Assembly (NCBI RefSeq): GCF_965363235.1
Contig: NC_134851.1
Coordinates: 57,230,833 to 57,294,832, forward strand
DNA: 64,000 nucleotides
Reading direction: 5' to 3'
Source of the DNA: Mytilus galloprovincialis
Lineage: Eukaryota > Mollusca > Bivalvia > Mytilida > Mytilidae
In this document: in pieces, positions 6,775 to 62,096 of the stretch
Position numbering within the stretch: position 1 is the stretch's first letter
Layout of the letters: each line of letters opens with the position of its first letter
Notes under the pieces: generated by a model
Database searches by the model: none
The model's input: only the letters and a program-made list of their open reading frames with translations
Told to the model about the DNA's origin: nothing
Program-made: the position numbers and the translations under genes

Positions 6775-6935
6775 GATTAGCCGTATTTGGCACTACTCTT
6801 TGAAAGTTTTTGTCATCAGTGATTTCATCTTTGTTTGACTTTCTTTGCTATTTTGACCTGAGCGTCACTGATGAGTCTAATGTAGACGAAACACGCGTCT
6901 GGCGTAGTAAATTATACGCCTGGTATCTTTCATAA
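6775..6935 (+). mobile_element. Partial retrozyme-type monomer
   Basis: The first part matches, in reverse, the body of the 355-bp monomers (the stretch around AACTTTGTATTTGTTTGGC), degraded. It runs into a hammerhead motif at 6862-6906 and ends with the monomer-start segment resembling TATAATCCTGGTA. It is a single truncated copy on the + strand. Confidence 0.75.
6862..6906 (+). ncRNA. Hammerhead ribozyme, solitary copy
   Basis: In order: GCGTCA (stem I 5' side), CTGATGA, a stem II hairpin GTCTAATGTAGAC, GAAA, a short stem III, GTC, then TGGCGT (stem I 3' side). The catalytic core bases are intact. Stem III here reads ACACGCGT, with one mismatch relative to the array copies (ACGCGCGT), so activity may be reduced. 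Confidence 0.8.
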
Positions 6936-7554
6936 CTATTAGCTTGCGTAATGTAATGTTCTATTGTATTGTTTATTTGTGTGTTTCTCTATCCTGCATA
7001 TTCTCCCATTTATTTTTATTGTAGCATTGTCATGTAATGTTGTCATGTAATGTAATATTTAACATTGTCATAAAAGCGATAGGTTTGGATAGCCACAAAA
7101 ACAAGTTCAACCCACCATTTTTTCTTATAATGTCCTAACCAAGTCAGGAAAATGGACATTGTTATATATTATAGTTCGTTTCTGTGTGTGTTGCATTTAA
7201 ATAATTTCGTTGTGTCGTTTTTCGTTAATATTTGATGTGTTTCTCTCAGTTTTAGTTTGTAACCCGGTTTTGTTTTTCTCAATCGATTTAAGAATTTCGA
7301 ACAGAGGAATACTACTGTTGTCTTTATTCAACATTACTACCACTACTATTGGCTTTTTCGTGGCGGTCACAGTTTGCTTTATTTCGCTTCGATTTTGTTG
7401 TTATGGGCTCTATTTTTCAATCTTGAGCACATGATTTGAGGTATGATAAAACTTTATCTTATATTCAATACTTTAACTATTTTATAATTCATAATTAAAC
7501 GTCTAAGAAGTTATCTTACTAGTTTTTTTTTACATGTGAGATAAAGTTTTGTAA

Positions 7555-7774: not shown

Positions 7775-10328
7775 ATACATTCCAACACCTAAGACAACAG
7801 ATTACGACAATATCCAAACACTGGTGCCAACAATATGAAGAAGCTCTCTGTGATGAGTGCAAAGAGCATCATAAATTACTGAAAGCCACCCGAAGACACG
7901 AACCCATATCAATTTCGAGTTACAAATCTCTTCCGTCATTCATATCTAACATAAAACAATCATGTGTTTATCACAATGAAAAATATCAATTATATTGTAA
8001 TGAACATGCGTTACCTCTTTGTCTCCAATGCATCAATGATCATAGTAAGTGCAACGTCTCTTCTCTTGAAAAAATCACTAGTAGCGTCAAAACCTCTGGG
8101 CAATTTCTGGATTTAGAATCAAGGCTGGACGATTTATTACAAAACATTGAAAGAATAAAGAAAAGCCGAGAGGCTTATGATACTGACATTGAAACATTAC
8201 GAGTTCAACATGTTAAAGAAATAAAGCAGATAAGAGTTGAAATAAACAATAATTTAGATAACGTTGAAAAACAAATTCTTAAAGAACTAAAAGAGAAGGA
8301 GTGCCAATGTAAAGAGAGTATTCAAAAAGTTTTGTTGCCGGTCAAAGAAAAAGAAACTACAATAACTCATATGTCAATATCAATGTCAGTTGAATTTCAA
8401 AAGCATTAAAGAATATGCTTCCGATCTTCAAACATATATTAGAATGAGAGACCTTGATGTAACGGTTTATGAAAATGAACAATATTTGCAGTTGTTGATA
8501 GATACAAAAGGTTTCCAACATCTTGAGCTTGTGTACAAGGTAGCCACAAGTGATCAAAGTATTTTAAACAATGTAAAACATTTGGGATTAATTGAGATAA
8601 AAAATCGCAATAGTGATATTGAGTTGAAAAGAGCGAAAGATAAGCAAGCACAAATACAAGTTGCAGCAGAGAGGAAGTCCGTCAACGACGTGAAGTTAAT
8701 TTTGCAGAAGAAAATAACAACACAGGGAATTGCAGTTTGGGCTTGTTGTATGTCAAGAAATGGAGACTTTTTGTTCACTGATCATTCCTATAAAAAATCA
8801 CTATATGTAATCAAGTCAGATTGAACCCTTAACTATGAGACGTTCGTTCATCCTAGTGATGGGTTTGATATAACCATTGTCGACGAAAAACATGTCGCTA
8901 TTACAACTTGGCAGTCATCAAAGAAAACCGGTTTTGATATCATTGACATTGAGAACCGAAGTATACTATCAGATTATTACATGGCATTTTTCATATCGCA
9001 TGTATTATCAGCCCTAGGTTCAATATCAGCCCAAGAGCCGCATGGCTCGAGGGCTAATATTGACCGAGGGCTGATAATACATGCGATATGAAAAATGACA
9101 TGTTATGATCTTTTGATCATATGCTTCAACAACAGAGAAATAACAGATTCATATATTGATCCGTTTACGTTGTTCCCAAATAGAAGTTCAAAGAGTGAAA
9201 AGTTCATGGACGTCGGACCCCAAATTTAGTACATTCGATATGAAATATTTTTAACATATGCCTCCATAGAGAAAAAAAAACATTTTAATAAGGACGAATC
9301 GACAATAAAAAACATAATCCAACAATATATATAGAATGAACACAACCATTTTTAAAGTAACTTTCTAAATTATGTTTGAAACTTTTAAAAAAGGCATTTA
9401 TTTAATAATTTGTTTTGTTGTTTTTTTATGTTTTTTTTGTTTTTATTATTTTACACAATATACTTTCCAGTTTCCATGTATCCAAATGGTTGGTTTGTAT
9501 ACAATAATACTTTGTAATGTTTTTCACTGAAAACGTAGCATTGAAGTGTATTTTCCGGAATTTGCCGAGCATCACCGGAAAGCCATGCGATAACGTTACG
9601 GAAAGGCATGTGATAACAATCGAAGCATGTGATAAACTTTTCATATCAGCCCGCTAAGCACCAATTAAAAAAATATGAAGTTTACGTAAATTTTAATGCT
9701 TTTATCATACAGTAAAATTCATATGTTATTTAGCCTAAGTATATGATAATATCAGATTATTACATGGCATTTTTCATATCGCATGTATTATCAGCCCTAG
9801 GTTCAATATCAGCCCAAGAGCCGCATGGCTCGAGGGCTAATAAAGTTTATCAACCTTCCTGGTCCGTCATATGGAATCACATGTGATAACGACTCGCTGT
9901 TTGTCTGTGTAGAAAGACGTGGTATCTTCAAAGTTTATACTGTAGACTATACTAACTCTAACGTGGTAAGTTGTAACTTGTCCTGGTTTCCCTACGTATC
10001 TGTATTCGCCGATAAGATTTACTATACTGACAAGAATGATCAGAGTTTAGTTTGTTGTTACTCTAATGGATCATGCGTTTAACTTATAGAGATACCTCAG
10101 TTTTGAAATTCCCGAGAGGCATCGCTGTAGATAATGATGAAAACGTGTTTGTTGTTGGAGGCTTGTCGTCGAGTGTGGTCATTATATCAAACGATGGAAA
10201 ACATCACCAGGAAATCCTGACCAATGAGGATGGTGTCTTTAAACCAACCGCTATTTTCTTTGATAAACAGAAAAAAACTGCTTGTTACTAATCTAGAGCA
10301 TTCAGCATTTATCTACAATTTTGCGTAA
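7775..10328 (+). pseudogene. B-box/coiled-coil/propeller pseudogene A
   Basis: Homologous along its length to the intact gene at 30,770-32,458. Segments: first zinc-binding B-box (about 7795-7925), second B-box (about 7960-8085), coiled coil (8090-8560) and beta-propeller (8700-8966, then 9843-10,328). The start codon is missing: the region aligned with the start of copy C has no ATG. About 12 extra bases near 8371-8388 shift the frame. A TGA at 8822 interrupts the propeller. An 876-bp element is inserted at 8967-9842. Further frame changes lie near 10,080 and 10,270. The end aligns with the last codons of copy C. Family role: RING-less TRIM-like proteins act as scaffolds or regulators. This copy cannot make a full protein. 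No transcript evidence is available. Confidence 0.88.
8967..9842. mobile_element. Insertion with 93-bp direct repeats in pseudogene A
   Basis: A 93-bp segment (8967-9059) recurs at 9750-9842 in the same orientation with no difference I can see. Each begins TATCAGATTATTACATGG and ends GAGGGCTAATA. In the left copy it continues into a mirror image (to about 9105), forming a hairpin of about 50-bp arms around AAGAGCCGCATGGCTCG. The interior (9106-9749) is A+T-rich with no transposase. Reading frame homology to copy C stops at 8966 and resumes at 9843, so the insertion boundaries are well placed. Class unknown: possibly a MITE with a duplicated end. Confidence 0.75.
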
Positions 10329-15024: not shown

Positions 15025-16713
15025 TTGGATTACACCATGGCGCCTTCCAATACAAGTACATGCGGAAAGTGTTCACTTCGACAGACAAAGAAAACATCTG
15101 AACAATGGTGCCCTAAATGTGAAGAAGCTCTTTGTAACGAGTGCACAAACCATCACAAAGAAATGAAGGCCACAAGAAGTCACAGACCCATACTAATCTC
15201 TAATCACAAGTTACTTCCGTCAGTAATGGCTGACATACATCAATCATGTATCTATCACAATGAACAATATCAACAATACTGTGTAAAACATGCCTTAACT
15301 ATTTGTATGTCATGCATCAATGACCATCGCAAATGCAACGTCTCTACTCTTGAGAATGTCACCAACAATGTCAAGACCTCTGGGGATTTTCTAGATCTGG
15401 AATCTAGGCTGGACGACTTATTGCAAAACATCGATAAAATGATAAAAGACAGAAAAGCAAATTATTCTAACATTGAAAAAATTAAAACGCAACATGTTAA
15501 TCACATTTCACAAATAAGAGTTGAGATAAACAGACATTTAGATGCTCTAGAAAAACAAGTTCTAAGAGATCGTGAAGAGAAGGAGGTTCAATGTAAGGAG
15601 GATATTCAGAAAGTATTATCGACAATCAAAGACAAGGAAGTTATTATAAGTCAATATCATTCCAAATTTAAAAACATCAAACAATATGCATCTGATCTTC
15701 AAACATTTAATGGAATAGGAGAAGTTGAGGAGAAAGTTATCGAATATTAAGCATATTTGCAGTCGGTGGTAGAGGCAAAAGGTTTCGAGCAGTTTGATCT
15801 TGTATTCAAGATAGACACAGATGTGCAAATTATTTTGAACGCACCAAAGCATTTTGGATCAACTGAAATCAAAGTCGGACCTAACAACTTCGAGTTTAAC
15901 CGAGCGAAATATAAGCAAGCACAGTTGTGGGTAGTAGGGACGAAACAAACGATAAACGATGTGAAGTTAATTCTACAGAAAAAGATAAAAACATACGGCG
16001 GCACAGTTAAGGGTTGTTGTGTGTCAGAAGTAGGCGAATTTCTATTTATTGATAACTGGAGTAAAACAATGCTTCATGTCATATCGTCTGATAGCACATT
16101 AAAGTTCAACATGTCCCTTGATCCTTGTGATGTGTTTGATATAGTCTGTTTCGATAAGAATACTGTCGCTATTACAACTGGACAGTCGTTAAAGAAGACC
16201 GGTGTTTATATTATAGACCTTGAAAAACGAATTAAAATAGAATATCAATCCCTCCTAGGTCGCTCATACGGAATCACACGTGATCAATACTCGCTTTTTG
16301 TTTGTGTTGCCGCAATAGGTATATTCTAAATAAACATTGTGGATCATACCTCACACCTGATTAATCGTTAATTATCACTTAATTCTTACGTATCTGTTTT
16401 TGGCGACAAAATTTACTGCACTAACTGCAATGATCACAGTGTAGTGTGTTGTGATCGCAATGGATCACATGTTTGGATATTTAAAAATGAATCGGTTTTG
16501 AAACGTCCGAGAGGCATCACTGTAGATAATGACGGAAACGTGTTTGTTGTTGGGTATGCGTCGTCGAATGTAATAATTATTTCGAACGATGGGAAACATC
16601 ACAAGGAAATCTTGACCAGACAGGATGGTCTTCGTAGTCCATCTGTCATTGTCTTTGATAACCAGAAAAGGGAACTTCTTGTTGGAAACCTTCTCTACAA
16701 TGTTCATTATTAA
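15025..16713 (+). pseudogene. B-box/coiled-coil/propeller pseudogene B (three in-frame stops, no frameshift)
   Basis: One reading frame runs 1,689 bp, the same length as the intact copy C, interrupted by TAA at 15,748, 16,327 and 16,369. Counting from the ATG at 15,025, the ATG matching copy C is 15,037 (MAPS versus MASI), so the true start was probably there. First B-box: C-x2-C near CGKC, then WCPKC, CNEC and a His pair. Second B-box: CIYH ... CVKH ... CMSC ... HRKC. Coiled coil follows to about residue 240, then the propeller to the end, with the repeat motif PRGITVDNDGNVFVVG conserved. The place of the 3' splice acceptor in copy C (TTTTAG) reads TTCTTG here, so splicing from an upstream exon may also be lost. 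The first 241 codons could still encode a truncated B-box/coiled-coil protein. Confidence 0.88.
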
Positions 16714-26790: not shown

Positions 26791-27489
26791 GTTTTGTACG
26801 AAAGCCTAAAAGGGACACCAATTTTTTTTTATCTCGTAAATAGTTATCAAATGTACTAGGATTATAATTTAGTACGTCAGACGCACGTTTCGTCTACATA
26901 AGACTCATCAGTGACGCTTATATCAAGCTAAACAAAAACAAAGTTGACAGCATTTAGGATCCAAAATTCCAAAAAGTTGGACCAAATACGGCTAAGGTAA
27001 TAAATGCCTGGGATAAGAAAATCCTTAGTTTTTCGAAAAATCGAAAGTTTTGTAAACAGGAAATTTATAAAAATGACCACATTATTGATATTCATGTCAA
27101 TACCGAAGTGTTAACTACCAGGATTATAATTTATTACGTCAGACGCGCGTTTCGTCTACATAAGACTCATCAGTGACGCTCATATCAAAACATTTATAAA
27201 GCCAAACAAGTACAAAGTTGAAGAGCATTTAGGATCCAAAATTAAAAAAGGTTGGGCAAAATCCGGCTAAGGTTATCTATGCCTGGGATAGGAAAATCCT
27301 TAGTTTTTCGAAAAATCCAAAGTTTTTTAAACAGGAAATTTATAAAAATGACCACATTATTGATATTCATGTCAACACCGAAGTGTTGATTACTGGGCTG
27401 GTGATACCCTCGGGGACGAAACGTCCACCAGCAGTGCCATCGACCCAGTGAGTTAAATAGTTATCAAAGGTACCAGGATTATAATTTAG

Positions 27490-27534
27490 TACGCCAGACG
27501 CGCGTTTCGTCTACATAAGAATTATCAGTGACGC
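27490..27534 (-). ncRNA. Hammerhead-derived motif, type B (altered core)
   Basis: Same architecture, but the core reads CTGATAA and stem II begins TTC rather than GTC, while GAAA, stem III and GTC are kept. The conserved G of CTGANGA is essential in studied hammerheads, so this motif is probably inactive. The same state occurs in every other B monomer: 28,200-28,244, 28,910-28,954 and 29,620-29,664. Confidence 0.88.
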
Positions 27535-27844
27535 TCATATCAAAATATTTATAAAGCCAAACAAGTACAAATTTGAAGAGCATTTAGGATCCGAAATTCC
27601 AAAATGTTTGGCCAAATACGGCTAAGGTAATCTAAGCCTGGGATAAGAAAATCCTTAGTTTTTCGAAAAATCCACAGTTTTGTAATCAGGAAATTTATAA
27701 AAATGACCACATTATTGATATTCATGTCAACACCGAAGTTTTGACTACTGGGCTGGTGATACTCTCGGGGACGAAACTTCCACCAGCAGTGGCATCGACC
27801 CAGTGATGTAAATAGGTATCAAAGGTACCAGGATTATAATTTTG

Positions 27845-27889
27845 TACGCCAGACGCGCGTTTCGTCTACATAAGACTCATCAGTGACGC
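27845..27889 (-). ncRNA. Hammerhead ribozyme, type A (intact core)
   Basis: On the - strand: GCGTCA / CTGATGA / stem II GTCTTATGTAGAC / GAAA / stem III of three pairs within ACGCGCGT / GTC / TGGCGTA. All conserved core bases are present. Stem I can form six pairs, two of them wobble. The very short stem III resembles schistosome hammerheads. Equivalent intact-core motifs in this array: 26,873-26,917, 27,135-27,179, 28,555-28,599, 29,265-29,309 (one stem II change) and 29,975-30,019 (one stem II loop change). Expected cut: 3' of the GTC. Confidence 0.9.
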
Positions 27890-30439
27890 TCATATCAAAA
27901 CATTTATAAAGCCAAACAAGTACAAAGTTGAAGAGCATTTAGGATCCAAAATTAAAAAAGGTTGGGCAAAATCCGGCTAAGGTTATCTATGCCTGGGATA
28001 GGAAAATCCTTAGTTTTTCGAAAAATCCAAAGTTTTTTAAACAGGAAATTTATAAAAATGACCACATTATTGATATTCATGTCAACACCGAAGTGTTGAT
28101 TACTGGGCTGGTGATACCCTCGGGGACGAAACGTCCACCAGCAGTGCCATCGACCCAGTGAGGTAAATAGTTATCAAAGGTACCAGGATTATAATTTAGT
28201 ACGCCAGACGCGCGTTTCGTCTACATAAGAATTATCAGTGACGCTCATATCAAAATATTTATAAAGCCAAACAAGTACAAATTTGAAGAGCATTTAGGAT
28301 CCGAAATTCCAAAATGTTTGGCCAAATACGGCTAAGGTAATCTAAGCCTGGGATAAGAAAATCCTTAGTTTTTCGAAAAATCCACAGTTTTGTAATCAGG
28401 AAATTTATAAAAATGACCACATTATTGATATTCATGTCAACACCGAAGTTTTGACTACTGGGCTGGTGATACTCTCGGGGACGAAACTTCCACCAGCAGT
28501 GGCATCGACCCAGTGATGTAAATAGGTATCAAAGGTACCAGGATTATAATTTTGTACGCCAGACGCGCGTTTCGTCTACATAAGACTCATCAGTGACGCT
28601 CATATCAAAACATTTATAAAGCCAAACAAGTACAAAGTTGAAGAGCATTTAGGATCCAAAATTAAAAAAGGTTGGGCAAAATCCGGCTAAGGTTATCTAT
28701 GCCTGGGATAGGAATATCCTTAGTTTTTCGAAAAATCCAAAGTTTTTTAAACAGGAAATTTATAAAAATGACCACATTATTGATATTCATGTCAACACCG
28801 AAGTGTTGATTACTGGGCTGGTGATAACCTCGGGGACGAAACGTCCACCAGCAGTGCCATCGACCCAGTGAGGTAAATAGTTATCAAAGGTACCAGGATT
28901 ATAATTTAGTACGCCAGACGCGCGTTTCGTCTACATAAGAATTATCAGTGACGCTCATATCAAAATATTTATAAAGCCAAACAAGTACAAATTTGAAGAG
29001 CATTTAGGATCCGAAATTCCAAAATGTTTGGCCAAATACGGCTAAGGTAATCTAAGCCTGGGATAAGAAAATCCTTAGTTTTTCGAAAAATCCACAGTTT
29101 TGTAATCAGGAAATTTATAAAAATGACCACATTATTGATATTCATGTCAACACCGAAGTTTTGACTACTGGGCTGGTGATACTCTCGGGGACGAAACTTC
29201 CACCAGCAGTGGCATCGACCCAGTGATGTAAATAGGTATCAAAGGTACCAGGATTATAATTTTGTACGCCAGACGCGCGTTTCGTCTACATACGACTCAT
29301 CAGTGACGCTCATATCAAAACATTTATAAAGCCAAACAAGTACAAAGTTGAAGAGCATTTAGGATCCAAAATTAAAAAAGGTTGGGCAAAATCCGGCTAA
29401 GGTTATCTATGCCTGGGATAGGAAAATCCTTAGTTTTTCGAAAAATCCAAAGTTTTTTAAACAGGAAATTTATAAAAATGACCACATTATTGATATTCAT
29501 GTCAACACCGAAGTGTTGATTACTGGGCTGGTGATACCCTCGGGGACGAAACGTCCACCAGCAGTGCCATCGACCCAGTGAGGTAAATAGTTATCAAAGG
29601 TACCAGGATTATAATTTAGTACGCAAGACGCGCGTTTCGTCTACATAAGAATTATCAGTGACGCTCATATCAAAATATTTATAAAGCCAAACAAGTACAA
29701 ATTTGAAGCGCATTTAGGATCCAAAATTCCAAAATGTTTGGCCAAATACGGCTAAGGTAATCTAAGCCTGGGATAAGAAAATCCTTAGTTTTTCGAAAAA
29801 TCCACAGTTTTGTAATCAGGAAATTTATAAAAATGACCACATTATTGATATTCATGTCAACACCGAAGTTTTGACTACTGGGCTGGTGATACTCTCGGGG
29901 ACGAAACTTCCACCAACAGTGGCATCGACCCAGTGATGTAAATAGGTATCAAAGGTACCAGGATTATAATTTTGTACGCCAGACGCGCGTTTCGTCTACA
30001 TCAGACTCATCAGTGACGCTCATTTCAAAATATTTATAAAGCCAAACAAGTACAAAGTTGAAGAGCATTTAGGATCCAAAATTCCCAAAAAGTTGGGTCA
30101 AATACGGCTAAGGTAATCTATGCCTTGGATAAAAAAAATCCTTAGTTTTTCGAAAAATCCACGTTTTGGAAACAGGAAATTTATAAAAATGACCACATTA
30201 CGAGATAATTATCGCGTAGTACGAGTTAAGAAGTTTTTGTAACTCTTAATTACGAGATAGTTATCGCGTAATTACAATAAAACTATCGCGATATCACGAG
30301 ATGTTATTTTTTTTTATCTCGTAACACGCAATAATTTTTCGTAATTACGCGATAGTTTTTCTCGTAATGACGAGATATTAATCTCGAAATTAAGAAATAA
30401 ATATTTTTGGTGTGTGTCCCTCATAGGCTTTCGTAGTTT

Positions 30440-30660
30440 TGTGAAAGTATCGTTGTTAATATTACGGAATTTGATGCGACTGTCATATAAGTGAGAGATT
30501 TAGTGCTATAATACCAGGTTCAATCTACCATTTTCTACATTTGAAAATGCCTGTACCAGGTCAGGAATATGACAGTTGTTGTCCATTCATTTGATGCGTT
30601 TTGTCATTTGATTAGAGAATATTCCTCGGAGTTCAGTATTTTTGTGATCTTTATTTTTTA
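30440..30660 (-). repeat. Interspersed repeat family R2, reverse orientation
   Basis: Contains CCTGTACCAGGTCAGGAATA, ATGACAGTTGTTGTCCATTC and TTCCTCGGAGTTCAGTATTT. It is the best preserved R2 copy here and lies about 110 bp upstream of the start of gene C. Confidence 0.75.
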
Positions 30661-30769: not shown

Positions 30770-32458
30770 ATGGCCTCTATAATCAATAGATGTGGCATAT
30801 GTTCACTTAGACAGATTACAAAAACATCTTCCCACTGGTGTCCTGAGTGTAAAGAAGCCATTTGCGATGAGTGCAAAGAGCATCATAAATTACTGAAAGC
30901 GACCAGAAGTCACAAACCCACTGCAATTTCCAGTTATAAGTCACTTCCGTCAGTCATAACTGGCATTCAGCATTCATGTATCTATCACAATGAACAGTAT
31001 CAACAATACTGCGTTGAACATGCCTTGCCGATTTGTTTTAAATGCATAAATGAGCATCGGAAATGCAACGTGACTACTCTTGAAAATGTCACTGTAAATG
31101 TTAAGAACTCCGGGCAATTTTTAGATTTAGAATCAAGGCTGGAAGACTTATTGCTAAACATCGATATAATGAAAAAAGACAGAAAAGCTAATGTGACTGG
31201 CATTGAAAATTTGAAAACGCGGCAAGTTGCAGAAATTAAAAAGAAAAGACTTGAACTAAACAAACATTTAGACAATCTTGAAAGACAATTTATTAAAGAT
31301 ATTGAAGAAAAGGTATGTAAATGTAAGGAGGGTATCCAGAAAGTTGTATCGTCGATAAAAGAAAAAGAAACAGTTATTCATCACTGCCAGGTAAATTTCC
31401 AAAGCATAAAAAAATATGCATCCGATCTTCAAATATTTCTTGCAATGAAAGAAATTGAGTTGAAAGTTGACGAAAACGAAAAGTATCTGTACTGTTTGTC
31501 ACAATCTAAAAGTTTTGAGCAACTTGATATTGTGTGTAAGAATGACACAGGTGTTCAAAGTATTTTCAAAAGTTTAAAATTGTTTGGCATAATTGAGATT
31601 AAAACTCGAACTAAAACTATTGATTTTATCAGAGCGAAGGATAAACAGGCACAGTTCCAAGTAGCAGGGGCGAAAAAGACGATAAACAATATGAAGTTAA
31701 ATATGCAGAAGAAGATTCCAACTTACGGAGAAGAAGTAAGGGGTGGTTGTATTTCAAAAGAAGGGGACGCTTTGTTTACTGATTATTTTAATAAGAAATC
31801 GCTTAACGTTATCAAATCAGATGATACCCTGAGATATATCATGCCGCTTGATCCTAGTTATGGGTATGACATTACATTTATCGATGAGAAAACTGTCGCT
31901 ATAACATCTGGTCATTTATCGATGAAGACCGGAATTGACATTATAAACATAAAGAACCGCAGTAAATTGAACTTCATCAGACTTCCTGATCGTACATATG
32001 GTATCACATGTGATCATGGCTTTATATTTGTCTGTGTTTCAGAATGTGGTATATACAAAGTAAATACGTTGGATTATACCACAAGTCGCGTAATCAGTTG
32101 TTCTTTGCCGGCATATTCCTACGTATCTGTATCCACCGAAAAGATATACTACACTGACTATAAGGATGCCAGTGTAATTTGTTGTGATCATAATGGCTCA
32201 CGTATTTGGGTTTTTAAAGATGATTCAGTTTTGAAAATACCGAGAGGCATCGCAGTAGATAATGATGGTAGCGTGTTTGTTATTGGACATGGATCGTCAA
32301 ATGTAGTCATTATATCAAACGATGGAAAAAGTCACAAGGAAATCCTGAATAAAGAGGATGGTCTCCGACAGCCATCTGCAATTTTCTTTGATAAACAGAA
32401 AAGGGAACTCCTTGTTGCAAATGATAAGCAAACTGCCTTTCTCTACAATATAACGTAA
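30770..32458 (+). CDS. RING-less TRIM-like B-box / coiled-coil / beta-propeller protein (intact copy C)
   Basis: 562 residues in one exon. Two zinc-binding B-boxes: first with C8, C11, C24, C27, C32, C35, H39 and H48; second with C70, H73, C81, H84, C89, C92, H96 and C99. There is no RING finger before them. A charged coiled coil follows at about 115-225. The C-terminal third (about 325-562) reads as NHL-like propeller blades, best seen in PRGIAVDNDGSVFVIG and YGITCDHGFIFVC. Known of the family: B-box proteins of this build oligomerise through the coiled coil and bind partners or RNA by the propeller, often with roles in ubiquitin signalling or innate immunity. Direct ligase activity is doubtful without a RING. 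A TTTAAATTTGTTTTAG acceptor 9 bp before the ATG suggests a non-coding upstream exon. AATAAA lies at 32,558-32,563. It is the only intact member of the triplication. Confidence 0.92.
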   Translation: MASIINRCGICSLRQITKTSSHWCPECKEAICDECKEHHKLLKATRSHKPTAISSYKSLPSVITGIQHSCIYHNEQYQQYCVEHALPICFKCINEHRKCNVTTLENVTVNVKNSGQFLDLESRLEDLLLNIDIMKKDRKANVTGIENLKTRQVAEIKKKRLELNKHLDNLERQFIKDIEEKVCKCKEGIQKVVSSIKEKETVIHHCQVNFQSIKKYASDLQIFLAMKEIELKVDENEKYLYCLSQSKSFEQLDIVCKNDTGVQSIFKSLKLFGIIEIKTRTKTIDFIRAKDKQAQFQVAGAKKTINNMKLNMQKKIPTYGEEVRGGCISKEGDALFTDYFNKKSLNVIKSDDTLRYIMPLDPSYGYDITFIDEKTVAITSGHLSMKTGIDIINIKNRSKLNFIRLPDRTYGITCDHGFIFVCVSECGIYKVNTLDYTTSRVISCSLPAYSYVSVSTEKIYYTDYKDASVICCDHNGSRIWVFKDDSVLKIPRGIAVDNDGSVFVIGHGSSNVVIISNDGKSHKEILNKEDGLRQPSAIFFDKQKRELLVANDKQTAFLYNIT

Positions 32459-34960: not shown

Positions 34961-35339
34961 CCGGCTACTTGTACATCCCGACAACAAAAAGGCACTAGGA
35001 AAAGATTGCATGTTAAGATTATAATTCGAGAAATAGTCTGATTTAATGTTGAGGAAGTTATGCAGTACCCTTTTTTGTCATATCCATTATAAGTTTGTAG
35101 TGAGTCTTGTGTGTTTTTTTTTTTTAAAGTTCATTAGTATGTTTTGGACTTTATGTGACGTCCAGCAAAACTTCCTAATTATGCGAAGTTTATTCTCATA
35201 ACAGTTAAAGGAAGGTACAGTTTAAATATCGAGCACATGTTTTTAAATTTACTATTAATACTTATATTGTATTCTAATCTTTCAGGTGAGAAAAGATTTA
35301 TCCTTATGTGATTTATTTAAAAGTACTTGGTGAGTGTTT
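34961..35339. other. Non-genic spacer
   Basis: Nothing recognised. Confidence 0.4.
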
Positions 35340-35561
35340 ATAAAATTTAAAATTATGGAAATACTAAGGCTTTTCTACCTCAGGCATAGATTACCTTACC
35401 TTACCTTACCGTATTTGGCAAAACTTTTAGGAATTTTGGTCCTCAATGCTCTTCAACTTCGTACTTTATTTGGCCGTTTTAACTTTTTTGGATTCGAGCG
35501 TCACAGATGAGTCTTTAGTAGACGAAACGCGCGTCTGGCGTATATACAAAATTTAGTCCTG
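35340..35561 (+). mobile_element. Partial retrozyme-type monomer, split by a Harbinger insertion
   Basis: Matches the monomer body in + orientation (GGTCCTCAATGCTCTTCAAC, TGGATTCGAGCGTCA), runs through the hammerhead at 35,498-35,542 and into ATTTAGTCCTG. The continuation, GTATCTATGATGAG, resumes after the transposon at 39,337. A small TTACC expansion lies at 35,391-35,410. Confidence 0.82.
35498..35542 (+). ncRNA. Hammerhead-derived motif, altered core
   Basis: GCGTCA, then CAGATGA in place of CTGATGA, stem II GTCTTTAGTAGAC, GAAA, ACGCGCGT stem III, GTC, TGGCGTA. The changed core base probably abolishes cleavage. Everything else is conserved. Confidence 0.8.
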
Positions 35562-36085
35562 GGGCCTGGTTTTCGAAAGTATCATAAGATATGTCATAAG
35601 ATATATCTTAGGACAAATTTTATGACTATCATATGATATGTCATAGGATGTAAATCAAAGCTGTCTTAAGATTGTCATGGCTATGATGCTCTTATGACTG
35701 TCACAAGTGGACATATTTACGTTATTCTAATATTATATAAAAAATGGTAAAAATAAATAAAGACTGAAAAATAAGAATGACAATAATAATTATTATCATT
35801 AATATTATTTATGAATATTTTCTTTTTAATTATATGTTTAAATCTCGTTTGTTTATATATATAATATATTAAAGATATCCAAGTTCATGTATCATTATAT
35901 AAAGATTCAATATTTTATTGAGGTCTCACCACTTGTATATTATTATACATGAGGTGTTATTTAATTGTGATTACTTTTAAGTATTTGTACATCGAATAGT
36001 CGCTTAACGAAATACCCGTGCAAATACGTTACTAAACTACTGTATAAAAGAAAATAAATAATTTAGATATTTATTATACGCAATC

Positions 36086-45815: not shown

Positions 45816-48800
45816 TTATATATAAGTCACTTTGAAAACTTTTACAGTTGCATCACGTGCCCCAACCCATAAAAATCCTTTAGAATCGATTGCGGTTGCA
45901 TACGGACCGTACACTTCATCATTAGATGTGAGAATAAGGCGGATGAATTTACCAGAGTGATCTAAAAGATGTATAGCATCATTTGCATTGTCGGTGACGA
46001 AAATAAATCCTCTAGAATCGCATGCGAGACCACGTGGTTCAAAGCTATTTTTCAGACCGGATGTTTCTGCGCCAGTGTACTTCGCCTTCAGTGTTCCATC
46101 TCTTCTGTGTATTGTTACGCATCTTCGTTGACAATCAGCTATGCAGATATCTCCAGTCATATTGACAGCTATTCTAAGAGGATACATGAATTTCCATTGA
46201 TCTTCATCTCCGAACTCTCCAGTCATTCTCCCATCAACTGAATAACGGAGAACTTTATTCTTGTGGCCATCTTTGTAATCTTGAAAAGCTAGCGACTGAC
46301 CAGTGCAGACGAGAAGCTCGTTGTCCTCGGTTAACGCGATTCCTCGCGGGTGTTGTCCAAGAGTTGCTATGATTGAAAAGTCGATGTTTCCATGACTACG
46401 AAGAATTTGACGTTGGTCGCTACACGTTACGATCAAAGACTTTGATTTATCTTGAATGATTGAGTCGATGTTTCTGCCGACGGATTGGGTTCTCAATCTT
46501 GTACCGTAGACATTGAATAAATGTATTTCCGGTTTCCAACCGGAAGTTACCCATGCTTCACCATCGCCTACTGGACATATGGAGCTGACTACTTTGAATG
46601 TGTCGTCTACTTGGAAGACAGCCATTTCTTGAATCTGAAGTGTAAATATAAAATAAGTATTATCAAGTTAAAAAGTAAATAAAAGAACACCTATGCAGAC
46701 CCCAAATTAATGACTTCTCTGTCCGCATTTATAAATATAACTATACATGTATATACAGTTGCTTGATATCGTCATATTCCATTTAAGGAAAATCTAAAAC
46801 AAAAGAAGCGCTGCAACTCAGTGGCATATGGAACACTTAAGTTCATGTTTTAATCATTAGACATCTTAAGCATGTTAAGGTTTCTCTACAAAAATTGCAA
46901 AACTGCGGGGGAACAAATAATAGTACAAAAATAGATCTTGGATATATATCACAATCGAACTTTTCCCCCCTCTTTTCCTCTTTGAGAAGAATTGTCTGTT
47001 CTGATTGAATAAAATGTAATATACATATTACCCCCTTCTTCAAAATTATAGACAATATTCATAATGTATTGTTTTTCGACCCGTTTCTATATACTAACAT
47101 AGTTTGAGTCAAGATAGATGCATACTATCAGAAGTCTGTCAAGACAAACGTTAATAGATGAGTGTACGCCATACACGCATTTCGTCTATATATATAAAAG
47201 ACTCGTCAGAGACGCTCGAATAAAAAGTTAAAATGCATAAAAATAAAGTACGATGATGAAGGTGAAGGTAAGGAACAAGGTTTTATCAGTTTTGACATAA
47301 CCAAATTTATTTTTGTCTGTTAAATACTTACATTGTTAAGTATCTCCCCACTTTAAAGTAGCATGTACGTTTATGGTTCAGGGGTGAAAACTCGTTTATT
47401 CAGGGGGGATCCAGTCATTTTCAAAAGGAGGGTTCCAACCATATGTCCCCATTCGAATGCATTGATCGTTCAAAATAAGGAGGGGGTTCCAACCCCCGAA
47501 ACTCTAGATCTAGATCCCTCTAGATTCGCCACTGTTTATTTTTTTCACTTTCAGTCAAGCAAAAGGCAAACCACAAGGTAGAAATTACCAGGGGGACATT
47601 TAGAAAAATAGTGAAAAAAAACCTACACATAAAAGTAAAGATTGACCTATGCGAAACGAAACAAATGAAAACTCGAGTGATGAAGGTAACATTAAAAGAT
47701 AGGCCAGCGATACCAAAGGGACAATCAAATTCAAATGTCGAAAATTAACTTACAACGACATGAATAAAAAAAGAAAAAAGACCCATATACTAAATTTACC
47801 CCTAGTGGGACATTTTTTTACTTTAAGATAAGCAAATACCTTAATATCTACAGCAGGCGGACGTCTTGTTGACAAGCTTCCGAACGACTCTTCTATCTTC
47901 CCTTCTAGAGTTATGCTAGGACTAAGTTCTAGAGTCAATTTAGGTAGTTGAAGCCTTTCAGCAGTTGTTGTTATATTTTCCATTTGTTGGACCAATAAAT
48001 CCTTGTTTCTAGCTATTTCTGCATCTGCGCCGTACATGACTGCTTGATTCGCCGCGTGTATCTGCCCTGCAAGTGCTTTCGATGCTTGGGTAATTTTCTT
48101 TCTGTGGCTATCGATGCGTGCCGTTTCTACATTGTATTCCGAATCAACATCGTGTATCAATGTTGCTGCTAACTTGTCAACTTTATCGTGTAATTTAGTG
48201 GCTCTTTGATTAATGGTTTTAACAAGTCTGTCTTTTGTTTGTACCATGTTCTCTTCGTAACGATTCGCATCATTCAGCTGCTCGTGAAAAAGCGGAAGGT
48301 GAAGTTTTGCGCCCTCTAGTTTTGTATTCAGGTGCTCACGTGTTACTCTTGCTACTTCCTGAAGATCATCACTAACGTGATTCTCGTGTGACGTAACCTT
48401 GCATCGTAGACAGATGGTCATATCACATTTTCTGCAGTAGAATGTCAGCTCGTCCCCAGGATGTTTGTCACAGTATATTCTGGTAAGAACGCGGTGGCGA
48501 AGGTTAGGTGTCGAGTCGCGGACAAACAGGCCAATGAGATGATGATCGCGTGAAGCAGTCATCTTCAAGTGTGTCTTACAGCAATTTGGACACATGTTCT
48601 GGTCGCACTCTAAACATCGGCTGTCGGCAACATCATGTCGTTCGCAGACGTCACAGCGAACATTCGGCATATAGGTAGATCTTAGCTTGTCGGCCTTTAC
48701 ATAGAAATTTGTCTGGAATCTTGCCACCCCACCTTTTGGTATTAATGTATCTCCTAGGCATAGCGGACAACTAAACCGACCGAGCCTACCTGTCTTATCA

Positions 48801-48937
48801 ACGTAAGACTCCAAACATTTGAAACAGAACGTATGAAAACATGGCAGAATTTTCGGACGAGTGTATTCCCCCAAGCAGATTCCGCATGCGTCAGGCTGGA
48901 TCATCGGACCGAGTGAACTTGGCTCTCTGCTCTCCAT
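45816..48937 (-). CDS. TRIM protein: RING, two B-boxes, coiled coil, NHL-type propeller (gene D, two exons)
   Basis: Exon 1 is 48,937-47,840 (366 codons) and exon 2 is 46,634-45,816 (272 codons plus stop), giving 638 residues. Splice signals are AAG|GTATTT and TTACACTTCAG|ATT, both in phase 0. The join restores homology with gene E. RING: C18, C21, C33, H35, C38, C41, C57 and C60, a complete C3HC4 set. B-box 1 is at about 95-133. B-box 2 is C156, H159, C168, C171, C176, C179, H184, H187. Coiled coil at about 190-330. Propeller blades with motifs QHPRGIALTEDNELLVC, YPLRIAVNMTGDICIAD, EPRGLACDSRGFIFVTD and ATAIDSKGFLWVG. Family role: E3 ubiquitin ligase, with the propeller choosing RNA or protein targets. 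The closest named relatives in architecture are TRIM2/3/71-type proteins, but no orthology is claimed. Confidence 0.92.
47165..47215 (-). ncRNA. Worn hammerhead motif in gene D intron
   Basis: On the - strand: GCGTCT, CTGACGA, a longer stem II containing a TATATATA loop, GAAA, a weak stem III, GTA, TGGCGT. CTGACGA still fits CTGANGA, but stem III has two wobble pairs and stem I a mismatch. It has the same sense as the host transcript, so any residual cleavage would act on the intron. Confidence 0.6.
47395..47537. mobile_element. Decayed MITE of the CAGTGGCGGATC family
   Basis: Shares GGAGGGTTCCAACCATATGT, CATTCGAATGCATTGATCG and the end TAGATTCGCCACTG with the 41,446 and 58,270 copies. The left end is worn. 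Confidence 0.7.
47690..47760 (-). mobile_element. LINE-like retroelement tail in gene D intron
   Basis: GCGATACCAAAGGGACAATC, AATGTCGAAAATTAAC and TACAACGACATG match the tail family. It overlaps the intronic extension of exon 1. Confidence 0.6.
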
Positions 48938-52220: not shown

Positions 52221-53152
52221 AACTCATCTAAATCACACTAGACCCAAATGTGACCATACTTGACCCAAATGTGATCATACTTGACCCAAAAGTGGTCACA
52301 ATGGACCCGATCACACTGGACCCAAACATGATCATACAGGACCCGAATATAATCTCATAGGACCCGAATATAATCACATAGGACCCGAATGTTATCATAC
52401 TGGACTCAAAGATGATCACACAGTACCAACTGTAATCACACTGAACTCAAATGTGATCACATTGGACCCAAATCACACTGGACTCAAATGTGATCATACT
52501 TGACCCAACAGTAGTCACAATGGACCCGATCACACTGGAACCAAACATGATCATACTGGACCCAAATATAATCACATAGCACCCGAATGTGATCATACTG
52601 GACTCAAACATGATCACAAAGGACCCAAATGTATCAAACTGGGCCCAAACATGATCAAACTGGACCCAAATATAATCACACAGGACCCGAATGTGATCAT
52701 ACTGGACTCAAATATAATCACATAGGACCCGAATGTGATCATACTGGACCCAAATTTAATCACACAGGACCCAAATGTGATTACACTTGACTCAAATATG
52801 ATCACACTGGATCAAAATGTGATCATACTGGACCCAAATGTGATCACACTGGACCAAAATGTGATCATACTGGACTCAATAGTGATCACACTGAACCAAA
52901 ATTTGATCACACTGGACCAAAATATGACCACACTGGACCAAATGATATCATACTGGACCCAAATGTGATCACACTGGACCCAAATGTGATCAAACTGGAC
53001 TCAAATGTCATCACACTGAACCAACATGTGATCACACTGGACTCAATTGTGATCACACTGGACCCAAATGTGAACACACTGGACCCATATGTGATCACAC
53101 TGGACCCAAATGCGATCATACTGGACCCAAATGTGATCACACTGGACCAAAA
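52221..53152. repeat. 21-bp minisatellite (TGATCA-rich)
   Basis: About 44 units of a TGTGATCACACTGGACCCAAA-type 21-mer, including variants with ATGATCATACTGG and TATAATCACATAGG. A higher-order duplication of about 230 bp is visible: CACAATGGACCCGATCACAC near 52,287 recurs near 52,517. Most units contain the palindrome TGATCA. Because 21 is divisible by 3, both strands stay open, giving seven-residue repeats (ITLDPNV-like on +, GSSVITF-like on -) in five overlapping frames. I treat these as by-products. Confidence 0.95.
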
Positions 53153-53975
53153 TGAAAATGAAATGATAACTTTTGAAATAAGGGTTCACCAAGGTAAATA
53201 TTAGCCATCGAAACACAGGCACTTGTCTCAGAAAAAAAGTCCTATATTACTTATTAGTGTTTTACAGTGAAACCTGGTTAAAACTGAATCTGAAAATAAA
53301 CCGAAAACAGGTATTATCCAAACATGATCTTAAGCACCGTCATATCAAATTGTATGCGTTATGAACCTGATAAAAACCAAACATCGGCCAAAACCGAACA
53401 AAATCTTAAGTCACGTTTAAACAGGTTTCACTGTATTAAAGTGTGTGGGATTTTTTTTGATGAGACAAAAGGTGCATCGAAAGTGTAATTTTCTTTTTTG
53501 GTTCTCTTAAAAGCACTTAAAATGCTAGAATGTACTGCATACAAAGAGGTCTTTAAAATTATAGAACGATCATTACATATTTAAGGAAAAATATCTGTCG
53601 GATCTATCTTTAGTAATTGAAAAAAAAACCATGTTAACGAGTCTCGTTTCTATTGCCATTCAGTATTATTTATACACAATGCAGTTAAAAATTTGTATCG
53701 CCAAACTTCACGTTCTTTGTTAAAAATTGCACGCATTAAGGCTTATTAATTTCTTTTATTTTGTTTTAAATATACTTTAAAATGATTTAATATGAAATCT
53801 GATATATGAAAGTCATTTTAAAAGTTCATTCTAGTCTTAAGTGAAAATGTAAAAACGTGTTTTAAAATAGACAATCATGTTTTATTAGGTTTGAGACACT
53901 CAACGTGTGATCTCCATAAGAGAATACATCGAAATGACCACTGGACGTTAATCAAATAACAATCAATCAATCAAA
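53153..53975. promoter_or_regulatory. Upstream region of gene E
   Basis: A+T-rich, with AATCAATCAATCAAA directly before the ATG at 53,976. No TATA box at a convincing distance and no splice acceptor just before the ATG. The promoter is inferred only from position. Confidence 0.35.
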
Positions 53976-56102
53976 ATGGCTACCAGCCCTCAGGATTTTA
54001 AATATCCGATTGATCATCTCGAAAGATGTGGGTTATGTCTCAAAACTTTTCGAGAACCAAGAATGTTACCATGTTTTGATAGTTTCTGCAAGGATTGTAT
54101 AGCGGTCTACATGGATGCAAAACGAACAGGACAGACGTTTCCTTGCCCATTGTGTACGGAATCTATAGACATTCCAGAAAAAGGCGCCAACGGATTTGAC
54201 ACAAATATCCACGTGGCAGCCACGCGAGCTGTGTCTGCTGTTTTCCAAAGACCAGACTGTGATATTTGCGAGACCAAAGATCCAGCAGTGAACAGATGCG
54301 TTGAATGCGCACAAAACATGTGTCAAGGATGCAGTAAAAATCATCTTAAAATCAAATCAACGAGAAGTCATCATCTTGCAAATATGACGGACCCTGAAGG
54401 ACGCGTGTATCTAACGTCAAAAGCTTTCTGTACAAAACACCAATCAGAAGAAATTACATTTTTTTGCATTCAGTGCCAGCAATCTATATGCTTGAAATGT
54501 CGTCTGACAGTGCACGAAAATCATCTAACGGAAGATTTAGCCGACAGTGCTACGAAAACGAGGCAAGTTTTGACAAATGCTCTGAAAGAGGCAGAACACA
54601 CAGCGACAGCACTACATAATCAGTATAATGATTACAAAAATTATAGCAAAAACATTGCCATTATGAAAGGTCAAGTTTTGGCAAATCTTGTTACGCAGAC
54701 GCAGAGGCTTCATAAACACATCGATGAAATGTCGGTTCGGCTGTCTTACTTCGTCGAAGAGGAAACCTATTCCGAACAACATTACATCGAATCAAGGACC
54801 CGAGAACTTGAAAATGCCATTACATCTTGCAAAGCGCGGATTCGGGCGGCAAATCAAATAGTTGAATGTGGATCAGATGTTGAGATAGTCCAAGCTACTG
54901 GCAAGTTAAATGCCCGTATGCAGAGAATAATTAACCCGTCTGTGACATTCATCAAACCAAATAGACTGGAGATTGATTATATTCCGAGCGTCGTCGTTGA
55001 CGAAGACTTGGAGGGATTATTTGGCATGTTAAATAGTAGAGTACAATCACCGGACTATATTCGGACTGAGGAAGTAATATCATTCCGCCTATCAGACGGT
55101 GACGATGTTGTTAATTGTATTTGCCCGACTTCTAATGGAGAAGCTTGGGTCACCATTGGCTGGACTTCAGAGATAAGGCTGATTAACAGAACCGGTGTAA
55201 CAATTAAGTCATGTTTTATAAGTTCCGATATAGATTTCATTGCACGTGACAAGAACGAGCTCTTATACGTCTCGTGCCGAGCCGAAAAATGCATTCGGAA
55301 AATTAACCAAGAAATGGAAATAGTGGAATCTATAGTTTTTGATGGATTTCCACGAGGTCTTGCAATAACTACGACAGGAAGTTTACTTGTTTGTTTACCG
55401 AAATCGAAGACATATTTCGAGTACTCTCCTGCGCATGTCAACATAGTGAGACAGATAAACCCGGATACATCTGACGCAATCAATTACGGCGAATCAGGTG
55501 ATTTGTTCGTTTATCCAATTAGAGTAGCTATGAATCACTACGGTGACATATGCGTGTCCGATAATCTTCGTCACAGTGTCACCATATTTGAAAAGAGCGG
55601 TAAAATAAACTCCATCTATTATGGACAAAAGTCAACAGACGATCTCGGAAGGGAATCAGCACAAAACACATGTCGATCGCAACTGCGTGTTTCTAGAAAT
55701 AATGGTAACGAAGAAGTAATATCCGCGAGGGGATCCGATGGCGATTTCGAAGAACCAATTATATCTGCTCGATCAGGCAGGTCATCAAAAGGAACACCGA
55801 TTGCAAGGGCTATACCAGAACCTGAATCGGAAATGAGCCCTTTTGATCCCAGAGGAATAGCATGTGACCGATTTGGGCACGTTCTCGTTGCGGACTATAA
55901 CAGTAATTCTGTACATTTGTTGGACCATTCTGGACGATTTCTTCGACTGCTGCTGACAGATGCAGATGGAATGTTTGGACCAACGTCCATAGCTATAGAT
56001 GAAGATGGATTTCTTTGGATCGGAGGAGGAAATGCCACGGTTCGTGTTTACAGGTACATTAAAGCAGACGAAACAAAGAAGGAACCAATGCAGAGAAAAT
56101 GA
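53976..56102 (+). CDS. TRIM protein: variant RING, two B-boxes, coiled coil, NHL-type propeller (gene E, single exon)
   Basis: 708 residues, uninterrupted. RING residues align one to one with gene D: C18, C21, C33, C38, C41, C57, C60, but the histidine ligand is Asp35 (PCFDSFC against PCFHTFC). B-box 1 at about 95-133 (CDIC, CVEC, CQGC, H123, H132). B-box 2 has C152, H155, C164, C167, C172, C175, H180, H183. Coiled coil at about 190-320. The propeller begins near 360, with motifs FDGFPRGLAITTTGSLLVC, YPIRVAMNHYGDICVSD, FDPRGIACDRFGHVLVAD and TSIAIDEDGFLWIGG. About 74 residues (547-620), rich in Ser, Arg and Glu, are inserted between blades compared with gene D. Intronless where D has its intron, so one of the pair lost or gained it. 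Likely E3 ligase or scaffold; whether Asp35 keeps the zinc site is open. Confidence 0.93.
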   Translation: MATSPQDFKYPIDHLERCGLCLKTFREPRMLPCFDSFCKDCIAVYMDAKRTGQTFPCPLCTESIDIPEKGANGFDTNIHVAATRAVSAVFQRPDCDICETKDPAVNRCVECAQNMCQGCSKNHLKIKSTRSHHLANMTDPEGRVYLTSKAFCTKHQSEEITFFCIQCQQSICLKCRLTVHENHLTEDLADSATKTRQVLTNALKEAEHTATALHNQYNDYKNYSKNIAIMKGQVLANLVTQTQRLHKHIDEMSVRLSYFVEEETYSEQHYIESRTRELENAITSCKARIRAANQIVECGSDVEIVQATGKLNARMQRIINPSVTFIKPNRLEIDYIPSVVVDEDLEGLFGMLNSRVQSPDYIRTEEVISFRLSDGDDVVNCICPTSNGEAWVTIGWTSEIRLINRTGVTIKSCFISSDIDFIARDKNELLYVSCRAEKCIRKINQEMEIVESIVFDGFPRGLAITTTGSLLVCLPKSKTYFEYSPAHVNIVRQINPDTSDAINYGESGDLFVYPIRVAMNHYGDICVSDNLRHSVTIFEKSGKINSIYYGQKSTDDLGRESAQNTCRSQLRVSRNNGNEEVISARGSDGDFEEPIISARSGRSSKGTPIARAIPEPESEMSPFDPRGIACDRFGHVLVADYNSNSVHLLDHSGRFLRLLLTDADGMFGPTSIAIDEDGFLWIGGGNATVRVYRYIKADETKKEPMQRK

Positions 56103-56853: not shown

Positions 56854-57067
56854 TCGTGGCCAAAATATGTAAAATCCAAAGCTTATATAAAAGATGGAGA
56901 GCTATAATCTAACAGTTCCAAAAAGTATACTCAAATCCGTGAAAGGAATCAAAGCTTTGCATGAGGGAAATACATTCCTTAATTTATAATAATTTTTAAT
57001 ATTTTGAAACAGCAAATTTAATAACACAAAAAATCTGTATTTTCATGCCAGTACCGCAGTACTGGCT

Positions 57068-57125
57068 ACTGGGCTGGTGATACCCTCGGGGACTAACAGT
57101 CCACCAGCAGGGGCATCGACCCAGT
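57068..57125. repeat. Conserved 58-nt hairpin, variant loop
   Basis: Outer stem ACTGGG/CCCAGT, then CTGGTG/CACCAG and GGAC/GTCC around a 5-nt loop. Here the loop is TAACA rather than GAAAC, with the GGAC/GTCC stem kept. The same hairpin in array 2 starts at 60,119, 60,474, 60,829, 61,184 and 61,539. Confidence 0.8.
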
Positions 57126-57169
57126 GGTAGTAATAACATTAACGGTACCAATGTTTCTGTACCAGATGC

Positions 57170-59828: not shown

Positions 59829-61637
59829 ATAGTTATCAAAAGTACCAGGATTATAATTTTATACGCCAGACGCGCGTTTCGTCTACATAAGACTCATCAG
59901 TGACGCTCAGATCAAAATAGTTAAAAAGCCAAACAAATACAAAGTTGAAGAGCATTGAGGACCCAAAATTCCAAAAAAGTTTTGCCAAATACGGCTAAGG
60001 TAATCTACTCCTGGGGTAAGAAAATCCTTAGTTTTTCGAAAAATTCAAAGTTTTATAAACAGAAAATTTATAATATGACCATATAATTGATATTCATGTC
60101 AACACCGAAGTGCTGACTACTGGGCTGGTGATACCCTCGGGGACGAAACGTCCACCAGCAGTGGCATCGACCCAGTGGTGTAAATAGTTATCAAAAGTAC
60201 CAGGATTATAATTTTATACGCCAGACGCGCGTTTCGTCTACATAAGACTCATCAGTGACGCTCAGATCAAAATAGTTAAAAAGCCAAACAAATACAAAGT
60301 TGAAGAGCATTGAGGACCCAAAATTCCAAAAAAGTTTTGCCAAATACGGCTAAGGTAATCTACTCCTGGGGTAAGAAAATCCTTAGTTTTTCGAAAAATT
60401 CAAAGTTTTATAAACAGAAAATTTATAATATGACCATATAATTGATATTCATGTCAACACCGAAGTGCTGACTACTGGGCTGGTGATACCCTCGGGGACG
60501 AAACGTCCACCAGCAGTGGCATCGACCCAGTGGTGTAAATAGTTATCAAAAGTACCAGGATTATAATTTTATACGCCAGACGCGCGTTTCGTCTACATAA
60601 GACTCATCAGTGACGCTCAGATCAAAATAGTTAAAAAGCCAAACAAATACAAAGTTGAAGAGCATTGAGGACCCAAAATTCCAAAAAAGTTTTGCCAAAT
60701 ACGGCTAAGGTAATCTACTCCTGGGGTAAGAAAATCCTTAGTTTTTCGAAAAATTCAAAGTTTTATAAACAGAAAATTTATAATATGACCATATAATTGA
60801 TATTCATGTCAACACCGAAGTGCTGACTACTGGGCTGGTGATACCCTCGGGGACGAAACGTCCACCAGCAGTGGCATCGACCCAGTGGTGTAAATAGTTA
60901 TCAAAAGTACCAGGATTATAATTTTATACGCCAGACGCGCGTTTCGTCTACATAAGACTCATCAGTGACGCTCAGATCAAAATAGTTAAAAAGCCAAACA
61001 AATACAAAGTTGAAGAGCATTGAGGACCCAAAATTCCAAAAAAGTTTTGCCAAATACGGCTAAGGTAATCTACTCCTGGGGTAAGAAAATCCTTAGTTTT
61101 TCGAAAAATTCAAAGTTTTATAAACAGAAAATTTATAATATGACCATATAATTGATATTCATGTCAACACCGAAGTGCTGACTACTGGGCTGGTGATACC
61201 CTCGGGGACGAAACGTCCACCAGCAGTGGCATCGACCCAGTGGTGTAAATAGTTATCAAAAGTACCAGGATTATAATTTTATACGCCAGACGCGCGTTTC
61301 GTCTACATAAGACTCATCAGTGACGCTCAGATCAAAATAGTTAAAAAGCCAAACAAATACAAAGTTGAAGAGCATTGAGGACCCAAAATTCCAAAAAAGT
61401 TTTGCCAAATACGGCTAAGGTAATCTACTCCTGGGGTAAGAAAATCCTTAGTTTTTCGAAAAATTCAAAGTTTTATAAACAGAAAATTTATAATATGACC
61501 ATATAATTGATATTCATGTCAACACCGAAGTGCTGACTACTGGGCTGGTGATACCCTCGGGGACGAAACGTCCACCAGCAGTGGCATCGACCCAGTGGTG
61601 TAAATAGTTATCAAAAGTACCAGGATTATAATTTTAT
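59829..61637 (-). repeat. Retrozyme-type tandem array 2 (five identical 355-bp monomers)
   Basis: ACCAGGATTATAA starts at 59,844, 60,199, 60,554, 60,909, 61,264 and 61,619, each exactly 355 bp apart. By eye the five monomers have no differences. The array starts within ATAGTTATCAAAAG and ends after GATTATAATTTTATA, a few bases from the predicted ribozyme cut, as expected if a linearised or circular multimer was copied into DNA. The body is similar to array 1 (CAACACCGAAGTGCTGACTA, CTTAGTTTTTCGAAAAATTC). Confidence 0.94.
59862..59906 (-). ncRNA. Hammerhead ribozyme, array 2 (intact core)
   Basis: The - strand sequence is the same as the type A motif of array 1: CTGATGA, four-pair stem II (GTCT/AGAC) with a TATGT loop, GAAA, ACGCGCGT, C, TGGCGTA. 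Identical copies at 60,217-60,261, 60,572-60,616, 60,927-60,971 and 61,282-61,326. Self-cleavage of a - strand transcript would release 355-nt units. Confidence 0.92.
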
Positions 61638-62096
61638 AATCATATATGGAGATTTTACTTCATCTCTATCTATAATAATATTCAAGCTAAAAACTAAACA
61701 CGGCCAAATTTCATTAAAATTACCAATTCAGGGGCAGCAACCTAATAACGGGTTGTCCGATTCATTTGAAAATTTCAGAGCAGATAGATAATGACCTAAT
61801 AAACAATGGCAGATTTTCTCTAAATGTTTTGGTTTTAGAGATATAAGCAAAAATCAACATTTTACCCCTATGGTCTATGTTTAGTCATGACGGCCATCAA
61901 GGTTAGTTGGCCGGGTCACCGGAGACATTTTTAAAACTAGATACCCCAATGAAAATTGTGGCCAAGTTTGGTTAAATAAGGCCCAGTAGTTTCAGAGGAG
62001 AAGATTTTTGTAAAAGTTAACGACGACGACGGACGACGGACGCCAGGTGATGAGAAAAGCTTACTTGGCCCTTCGGGACAGGTGAGCTAAAAAGGG

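Follow-up and report, generated by a model that had tools for sequence, protein, structure and literature searches.

The window analysed here is a stretch of 64,000 nucleotides of the Mytilus galloprovincialis genome (assembly GCF_965363235.1, contig NC_134851.1, forward-strand positions 57,230,833–57,294,832). It holds a hammerhead-bearing tandem array (array 1, 26840–30200, minus strand) that we read, with a probability of about 0.78, as a metazoan non-LTR retrozyme inserted long ago as some 3.7 units, whose monomers decayed independently and in which one adjacent pair of monomers, one with an intact ribozyme core (A) and one with an altered core (B), was then amplified at the DNA level. The initial annotation had placed the array at 26850–30205, thus missing its ends by about 10 and 5 bases; the right boundary lies at 30197–30200, a TTA being common to the array and its flank.

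A repeat search of the window returned a tandem period of 355 bp for array 1, while its self-identity of 2300/2485 at a lag of 355 against 2120/2130 at a lag of 710 indicates that the repeat unit is 710 bp. Split at the ribozyme cleavage site, the array comprises a 40-nt tail between its left end (ATAGTTATC) and the first cut site (26840–26879), an edge monomer of 262 bp (m0, 26880–27141), eight monomers of exactly 355 bp each (m1–m8) and a second edge monomer of 219 bp (m9, 29982–30200), all on the minus strand. Both edge monomers carry an A core and are diverged, m9 being truncated and m0 lacking 93 bp, including a hairpin, with the junction at a shared TAC. Between them, at 27142–29981, lie four copies of the 710-bp unit, each composed of an A monomer followed by a B monomer: 27142–27851 (A 27142–27496, B 27497–27851), 27852–28561 (A 27852–28206, B 28207–28561), 28562–29271 (A 28562–28916, B 28917–29271) and 29272–29981 (A 29272–29626, B 29627–29981). 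The A and B monomers differ at 25 of 355 positions, with the minus-strand core reading CTGATGA in A and CTGATAA in B, and the nine successive monomers m1–m9 read ABABABABA. These cores and the identity at lag 710 bear out the alternation and the 710-bp higher-order unit that had been noticed at the outset, although the alternation, described as strict throughout, fails at the left edge, where the A-core m0 precedes another A (order m0–m9: A A B A B A B A B A), and the lengths of 354 and 356 bp given for A and B proved wrong, m1–m8 being uniform.

All six A-core monomers of array 1 were matched on the minus strand by the type I hammerhead model of Rfam (E ≤ 1, 31.1–35.8 bits; for example 27846–27889, 33 bits), with the Rfam gathering score of 34 bits being reached by a single match in the window, an A site. 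None of the four B monomers was matched at the same threshold, and one of them, searched by itself, scored 15.6 bits (hammerhead remnant at 28201–28244, minus strand). The B ribozyme differs by two changes, G8A, which turns CUGAUGA into CUGAUAA, and G10.1U, which replaces the first base of stem II (GUC to UUC) and breaks its pair; the initial annotation had recognised the core change and overlooked the second. B still has the cleavage triplet and a self-complementary stem III. As regards the effect of such changes, the accessible text on a schistosome hammerhead with CUGANAA reports that inactivity was predicted and states that the assay bore out the predictions (PMC8490949), and a G8C change abolished cleavage in a Penelope-like hammerhead (PMC11167929).

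Folding of 48-nt fragments indicated that the single hammerhead is not the minimum-energy structure of either monomer (A −4.4 versus −10.0, B −1.4 versus −9.6 kcal/mol), while the minimum-energy dimers show the stems of a double hammerhead (A-A −31.5, A-B −28.1 and B-B −24.7 kcal/mol). Most loop–loop tertiary contacts are described as missing from M. galloprovincialis retrozyme hammerheads in the available portions of Cervera and de la Pena 2020 (PMC7229834). Since A-B and B-B dimers also fold as double hammerheads, it is the core bases and not pairing alone that mark B as putatively dead. In the predicted A-B double hammerhead the B cut site is faced by an A core, so that cleavage of B sites by A cores, and hence 355-nt products, would be possible; the earlier expectation that A sites alone would cut and give 710-nt RNAs is therefore uncertain on the modelled folds. 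A separate plus-strand pattern match within the hairpin (CTGGTGA...GAAAC) was rejected as a hammerhead, with no Rfam report at E ≤ 1 and with its CTGGTG pairing with CACCAG in the B fold.

A maximum-likelihood tree unites m0, m9 and the A and B groups in a single clade (support 99/97) separate from array 2, a second array in the window described below (96/91), with bootstrap values that are not fully settled, and m0 and m9 fall outside both the A and the B subclades. The branches leading to m9, A and B are of similar length (0.033, 0.034 and 0.032) and that to m0 is longer (0.082), whereas branches within the A and B groups range from 0 to 0.006. Variation among the four 710-bp units is confined to 8 positions, and every one of these changes occurs in a single unit (1, 0, 2 and 5 in successive units). 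Long branches between A, B, m0 and m9 against so few private changes among the 710-bp units indicate that the four lineages split long before the 710-bp unit was multiplied, a multiplication that left out the edges m0 and m9. A and B agree with each other against array 2 at 18 columns. One or both edge monomers have a base in 15 of these columns, and in 14 of the 15 they side with A and B. The star phylogeny nonetheless appears imperfect: m0 has the longer branch, at column 71 A, B and m9 stand apart from m0, which agrees with array 2, and ACGTCA is found both in the left tail and at the end of m0 where other units have ACGCCA.

Two accounts of the 710-bp unit had been put forward initially, namely a spreading unit that had itself become a dimer with one working ribozyme, or the amplification, as DNA, of a dimer in which one site is dead. 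Under an obligate dimeric retrozyme, A alone would cut, and 710-nt A-B RNAs would be released, circularised and reinserted as tandem dimers; repeated copying of a 710-nt circle would indeed yield a block of four near-identical 710-bp units with a B ribozyme altered at two positions. Array 1, however, is framed by m0 and m9, neither of them A nor B and both as old as the A-B split, and at its left end, the start of the insertion, stands m0 and not an A-B pair. A-B units are known from this locus alone, and the second retrozyme array of the window consists solely of A monomers, five identical 355-bp units; moreover, B sites may still be cleaved by A cores within a double hammerhead. We consider the dimeric spreading unit unsupported and very improbable at this locus. 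Amplification of the dimer as DNA, by comparison, is supported by the non-A, non-B monomers at both edges and by the 8 private changes among the 710-bp copies. It had also been proposed that A-only or B-only arrays of the same age elsewhere, lacking any phase, would speak against a dimeric unit; array 2 answers to this in part, being A-only and without phase, but it appears to be much younger than array 1 rather than of the same age.

Selection is unnecessary to explain a dead B beside a live A in one old array, because ordinary decay suffices: with about 12 changes per monomer, the probability of at least one falling on the 14 core bases is 0.38, and on 25 bases it is 0.58. There is no marked sparing of the ribozyme, whose 38 columns depart from the majority state in 4 of 152 cells (m0 1, A 0, B 2, m9 1) compared with 41 of 1016 cells outside it. 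Ordinary decay followed by duplication is most likely the source of the alternation. The higher-order repeat is real, but it is explicable within an old retrozyme insertion.

Assignment to the retrozymes draws on both arrays. Array 2 (59829–61638, minus strand) consists of five 355-bp A-type monomers, identical letter for letter, and 35 bp of a sixth; each of its five A-core units carries a type I hammerhead at 33 bits (Rfam). As its five units show zero differences, array 2 appears to be either much younger than array 1 or recently homogenised, and it looks like the fresh form of a retrozyme array. The traits of metazoan non-LTR retrozymes are a type I hammerhead (present in 6/6 A-core monomers of array 1 and 5/5 of array 2; 31–36 bits), a head-to-tail unit of about 150–450 bp (355 bp here) and a GC content below 45–50% (A 38.9%, B 37.7%, array 2 unit 38.3%). 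The non-LTR retrozymes of M. galloprovincialis itself, as far as the available text of Cervera and de la Pena 2020 (PMC7229834) describes them, similarly combine a type I hammerhead with low-GC, head-to-tail units of about 350–390 bp, a likeness of features (here a 355-bp unit, 38–39% GC and a type I hammerhead). On these grounds array 1 seems to be a retrozyme of a known animal kind. The same text describes monomer-sized linear and circular RNAs, but neither a 710-bp A-B unit nor a fixed insertion start. Tandem repeats in which some hammerheads are broken are also found in the Schistosoma hammerhead satellites (PMC8490949) and in Dolichopoda pDo500 (PMC2808323), which are transcribed; a strictly alternating intact and broken unit such as the present one is not mentioned in the accessible parts of either report. 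No dimeric or higher-order retrozyme, and no retrozyme insertion end, was named in the open-licence PMC literature searched. Pattern scans for the ribozyme and the hairpin gave no matches in prokaryote genomes and viral contigs, collections free of animals and hence uninformative for mussels.

Further retrozyme sequences occur in the window. A solitary truncated copy in the opposite orientation (6777–6939, plus strand; hammerhead at 6862–6905, 29.6 bits) ends in the same 40-nt tail, and a fourth copy lies at 35335–35562, its left end being ambiguous. The hairpin region alone, without a hammerhead and in different flanks, is found at 57002–57150 (z −2.68 against shuffles, 2/200 as good) and may be a module common to another repeat family.

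All three copies with a placeable left end (array 1, array 2 and the solitary copy, at 6939), the fourth copy being left out of the count on account of its ambiguous end, start 40 nt away from the first cut site, at ATAGTTATC; backwards from this point, the flank continues to match the repeat unit by only 4, 0 and 1 contiguous bases, respectively. If starts were independent and uniform, the chance that two further starts would fall within one base of the first would be 7e-5, a figure that refers to three starts in one window. The other ends all differ, array 1 ending after CACA(TTA), array 2 ending 5 nt short of a cut and the solitary copy after the GGCTAA region. The boundary of array 1 is independently supported by its flanks, which, rejoined without the array, form a perfect palindrome with 11-bp arms, as did only 4 of 200000 random junctions given the same slack. 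As regards the empty site of array 2, its flanks match neighbouring repeats (86.7% and 72.8%), with a stretch of differing length between the matches. No clear target-site duplication was seen at array 1 or array 2, the longest word shared near the ends being 5 nt in both; in metazoan non-LTR retrozymes such duplications, where present, exceed 4 bp. AATAGTTAT is present on both sides of the solitary copy (6777–6939 and 6751) and is a possible target-site duplication, although it coincides with the element's own end.

Array 1 also lies within a candidate terminal-inverted-repeat element (26797–30435), whose ends match at 20 of 22 positions and are flanked by a 6-bp repeat, GTTTTG, at 26791–26796 and 30436–30441. 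The inverted repeat is suggestive of a host element and is regarded as a candidate only, because 2 of the 52 pairs of control segments gave 20/22 as well; no second copy of it was found in the window. Such a setting, together with the reports in the accessible text of PMC7492417 of bivalve DNA transposons carrying satellite-like arrays, would suit an explanation in which both arrays are ordinary satellite DNA that expanded and spread through DNA processes only (unequal exchange, extrachromosomal circles, carriage in a terminal-inverted-repeat element), with no reverse transcription. Three insertions in unrelated flanks nevertheless have one end in common to the base and three different far ends, whereas DNA circles should open randomly; the rejoined palindrome argues that array 1 entered the host element, and inverted-repeat ends of this kind were seen neither in the searched flanks of array 2 nor at the solitary copy. 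We judge the plain-satellite explanation unlikely. It is scarcely credible, in turn, that copy number and perfect identity stem partly from collapsed or expanded repeats in the assembly: assemblers can miscount units such as the five letter-identical copies of array 2, but array 1, with private changes at 8 positions and diverged edges, is unlike an invented repeat.

Several other features of the window were recorded. The ORFs at 45816–46625 (minus), 47750–48937 (minus) and 53976–56102 (plus) have RING, B-box and/or NHL domains above Pfam cut-offs and look like a TRIM-type gene cluster on the basis of these matches. A degenerate tandem array with a 21/42-bp unit covers 923 bp at 52232–53154. 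Three related stretches of more than 1 kb (7797–8963, 15081–16234 and 30811–31964) are about 71–72% identical between the reported pairs, one of them overlapping the ORF at 30770–32458, and 1012–1461 is a large palindrome, aligning with its reverse complement over 457 columns at 84% identity.

Adjoining the shared start is a hairpin (60118–60183, minus strand, in the array 2 copy) whose stem begins, in the RNA, 7 nt downstream of the start and which is also found in A and B. It folds better than shuffled sequences in array 2 (z −2.99, 2/200 shuffles as good) and to a lesser degree in A (z −1.98, 8/200) and B (z −2.02, 7/200, in a different fold). Target-primed copying that starts at an internal site yields insertions that share their RNA 3′ end and vary at the 5′ end. 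The shared start in this window resembles the internal reverse-transcription start of Penelope-like elements, and we infer such copying here as well. In the anole Penelope-like element, reverse transcription begins internally, at a stem-loop that follows the hammerhead in the RNA, and insertions in the genome end at those sites (Frangieh et al. 2024, PMC11167929). Penelope-like elements are also like the present copies in occurring as tandem units with a hammerhead and in having AT-rich targets, and their insertion ends fall at a set site within the RNA, downstream of the cut and inside or next to a stem-loop (PMC11167929). There are also differences, in that Penelope-like elements encode their own reverse transcriptase and endonuclease while the retrozyme here has no protein, and that in the anole element the start lies 111–118 nt and the cut 26 nt into the ORF, about 85–92 nt apart, compared with 40 nt here (PMC11167929). 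Ribozyme mutations did not lower the in vitro insertion of the anole element (PMC11167929). A Pfam scan of 10 of the 13 window ORFs of at least 110 aa found no Penelope-like reverse transcriptase or GIY-YIG domain. For retrozymes themselves, the available text of PMC7229834 proposes, without demonstration or insertion ends, target-primed copying of RNA circles by a non-LTR or Penelope-like reverse transcriptase, and names Penelope-like elements as a strong candidate carrier.

The history that we propose for array 1 would have begun with a minus-strand retrozyme RNA, either a circle or an uncut multimer, that was reverse transcribed, probably by Penelope-like machinery, from the fixed start inside it, 40 nt beyond the cut, so that about 3.7 head-to-tail units landed in the centre of the palindrome. 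As read from the sequence, m0, A, B and m9 would then have diverged separately, m0 losing 93 bp and B losing its ribozyme through two point changes, before the adjacent A-B pair was multiplied as DNA to four copies, by what was presumably either unequal exchange or replication slippage; this last step would be the sole source of the A/B alternation. Either template would fit, and a linear multimer beginning near a cut also suits array 2, as its far end is 5 nt from a hammerhead cut.

With decay followed by duplication as the probable account, there is no longer a case for a dimeric retrozyme at this locus. The shared start is the part worth following, as it bears on the open question of the route by which animal retrozymes return to DNA. 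We suggest tentatively, at slightly less than even odds, that mussel-type retrozymes insert in the manner of Penelope-like elements, through internal initiation at a single fixed base that lies 40 nt beyond the cut and next to a conserved hairpin. Repeated rounds on a circular RNA (or copying along an uncut multimer) would then leave the 3′ RNA end constant and the 5′ end variable, with identical fresh units as in array 2, and alternating arrays like array 1 would be their aged, locally re-amplified descendants. The constant start, the hairpin, the variable far ends and the one uniform array make this a prediction that is testable in any mussel genome assembly.
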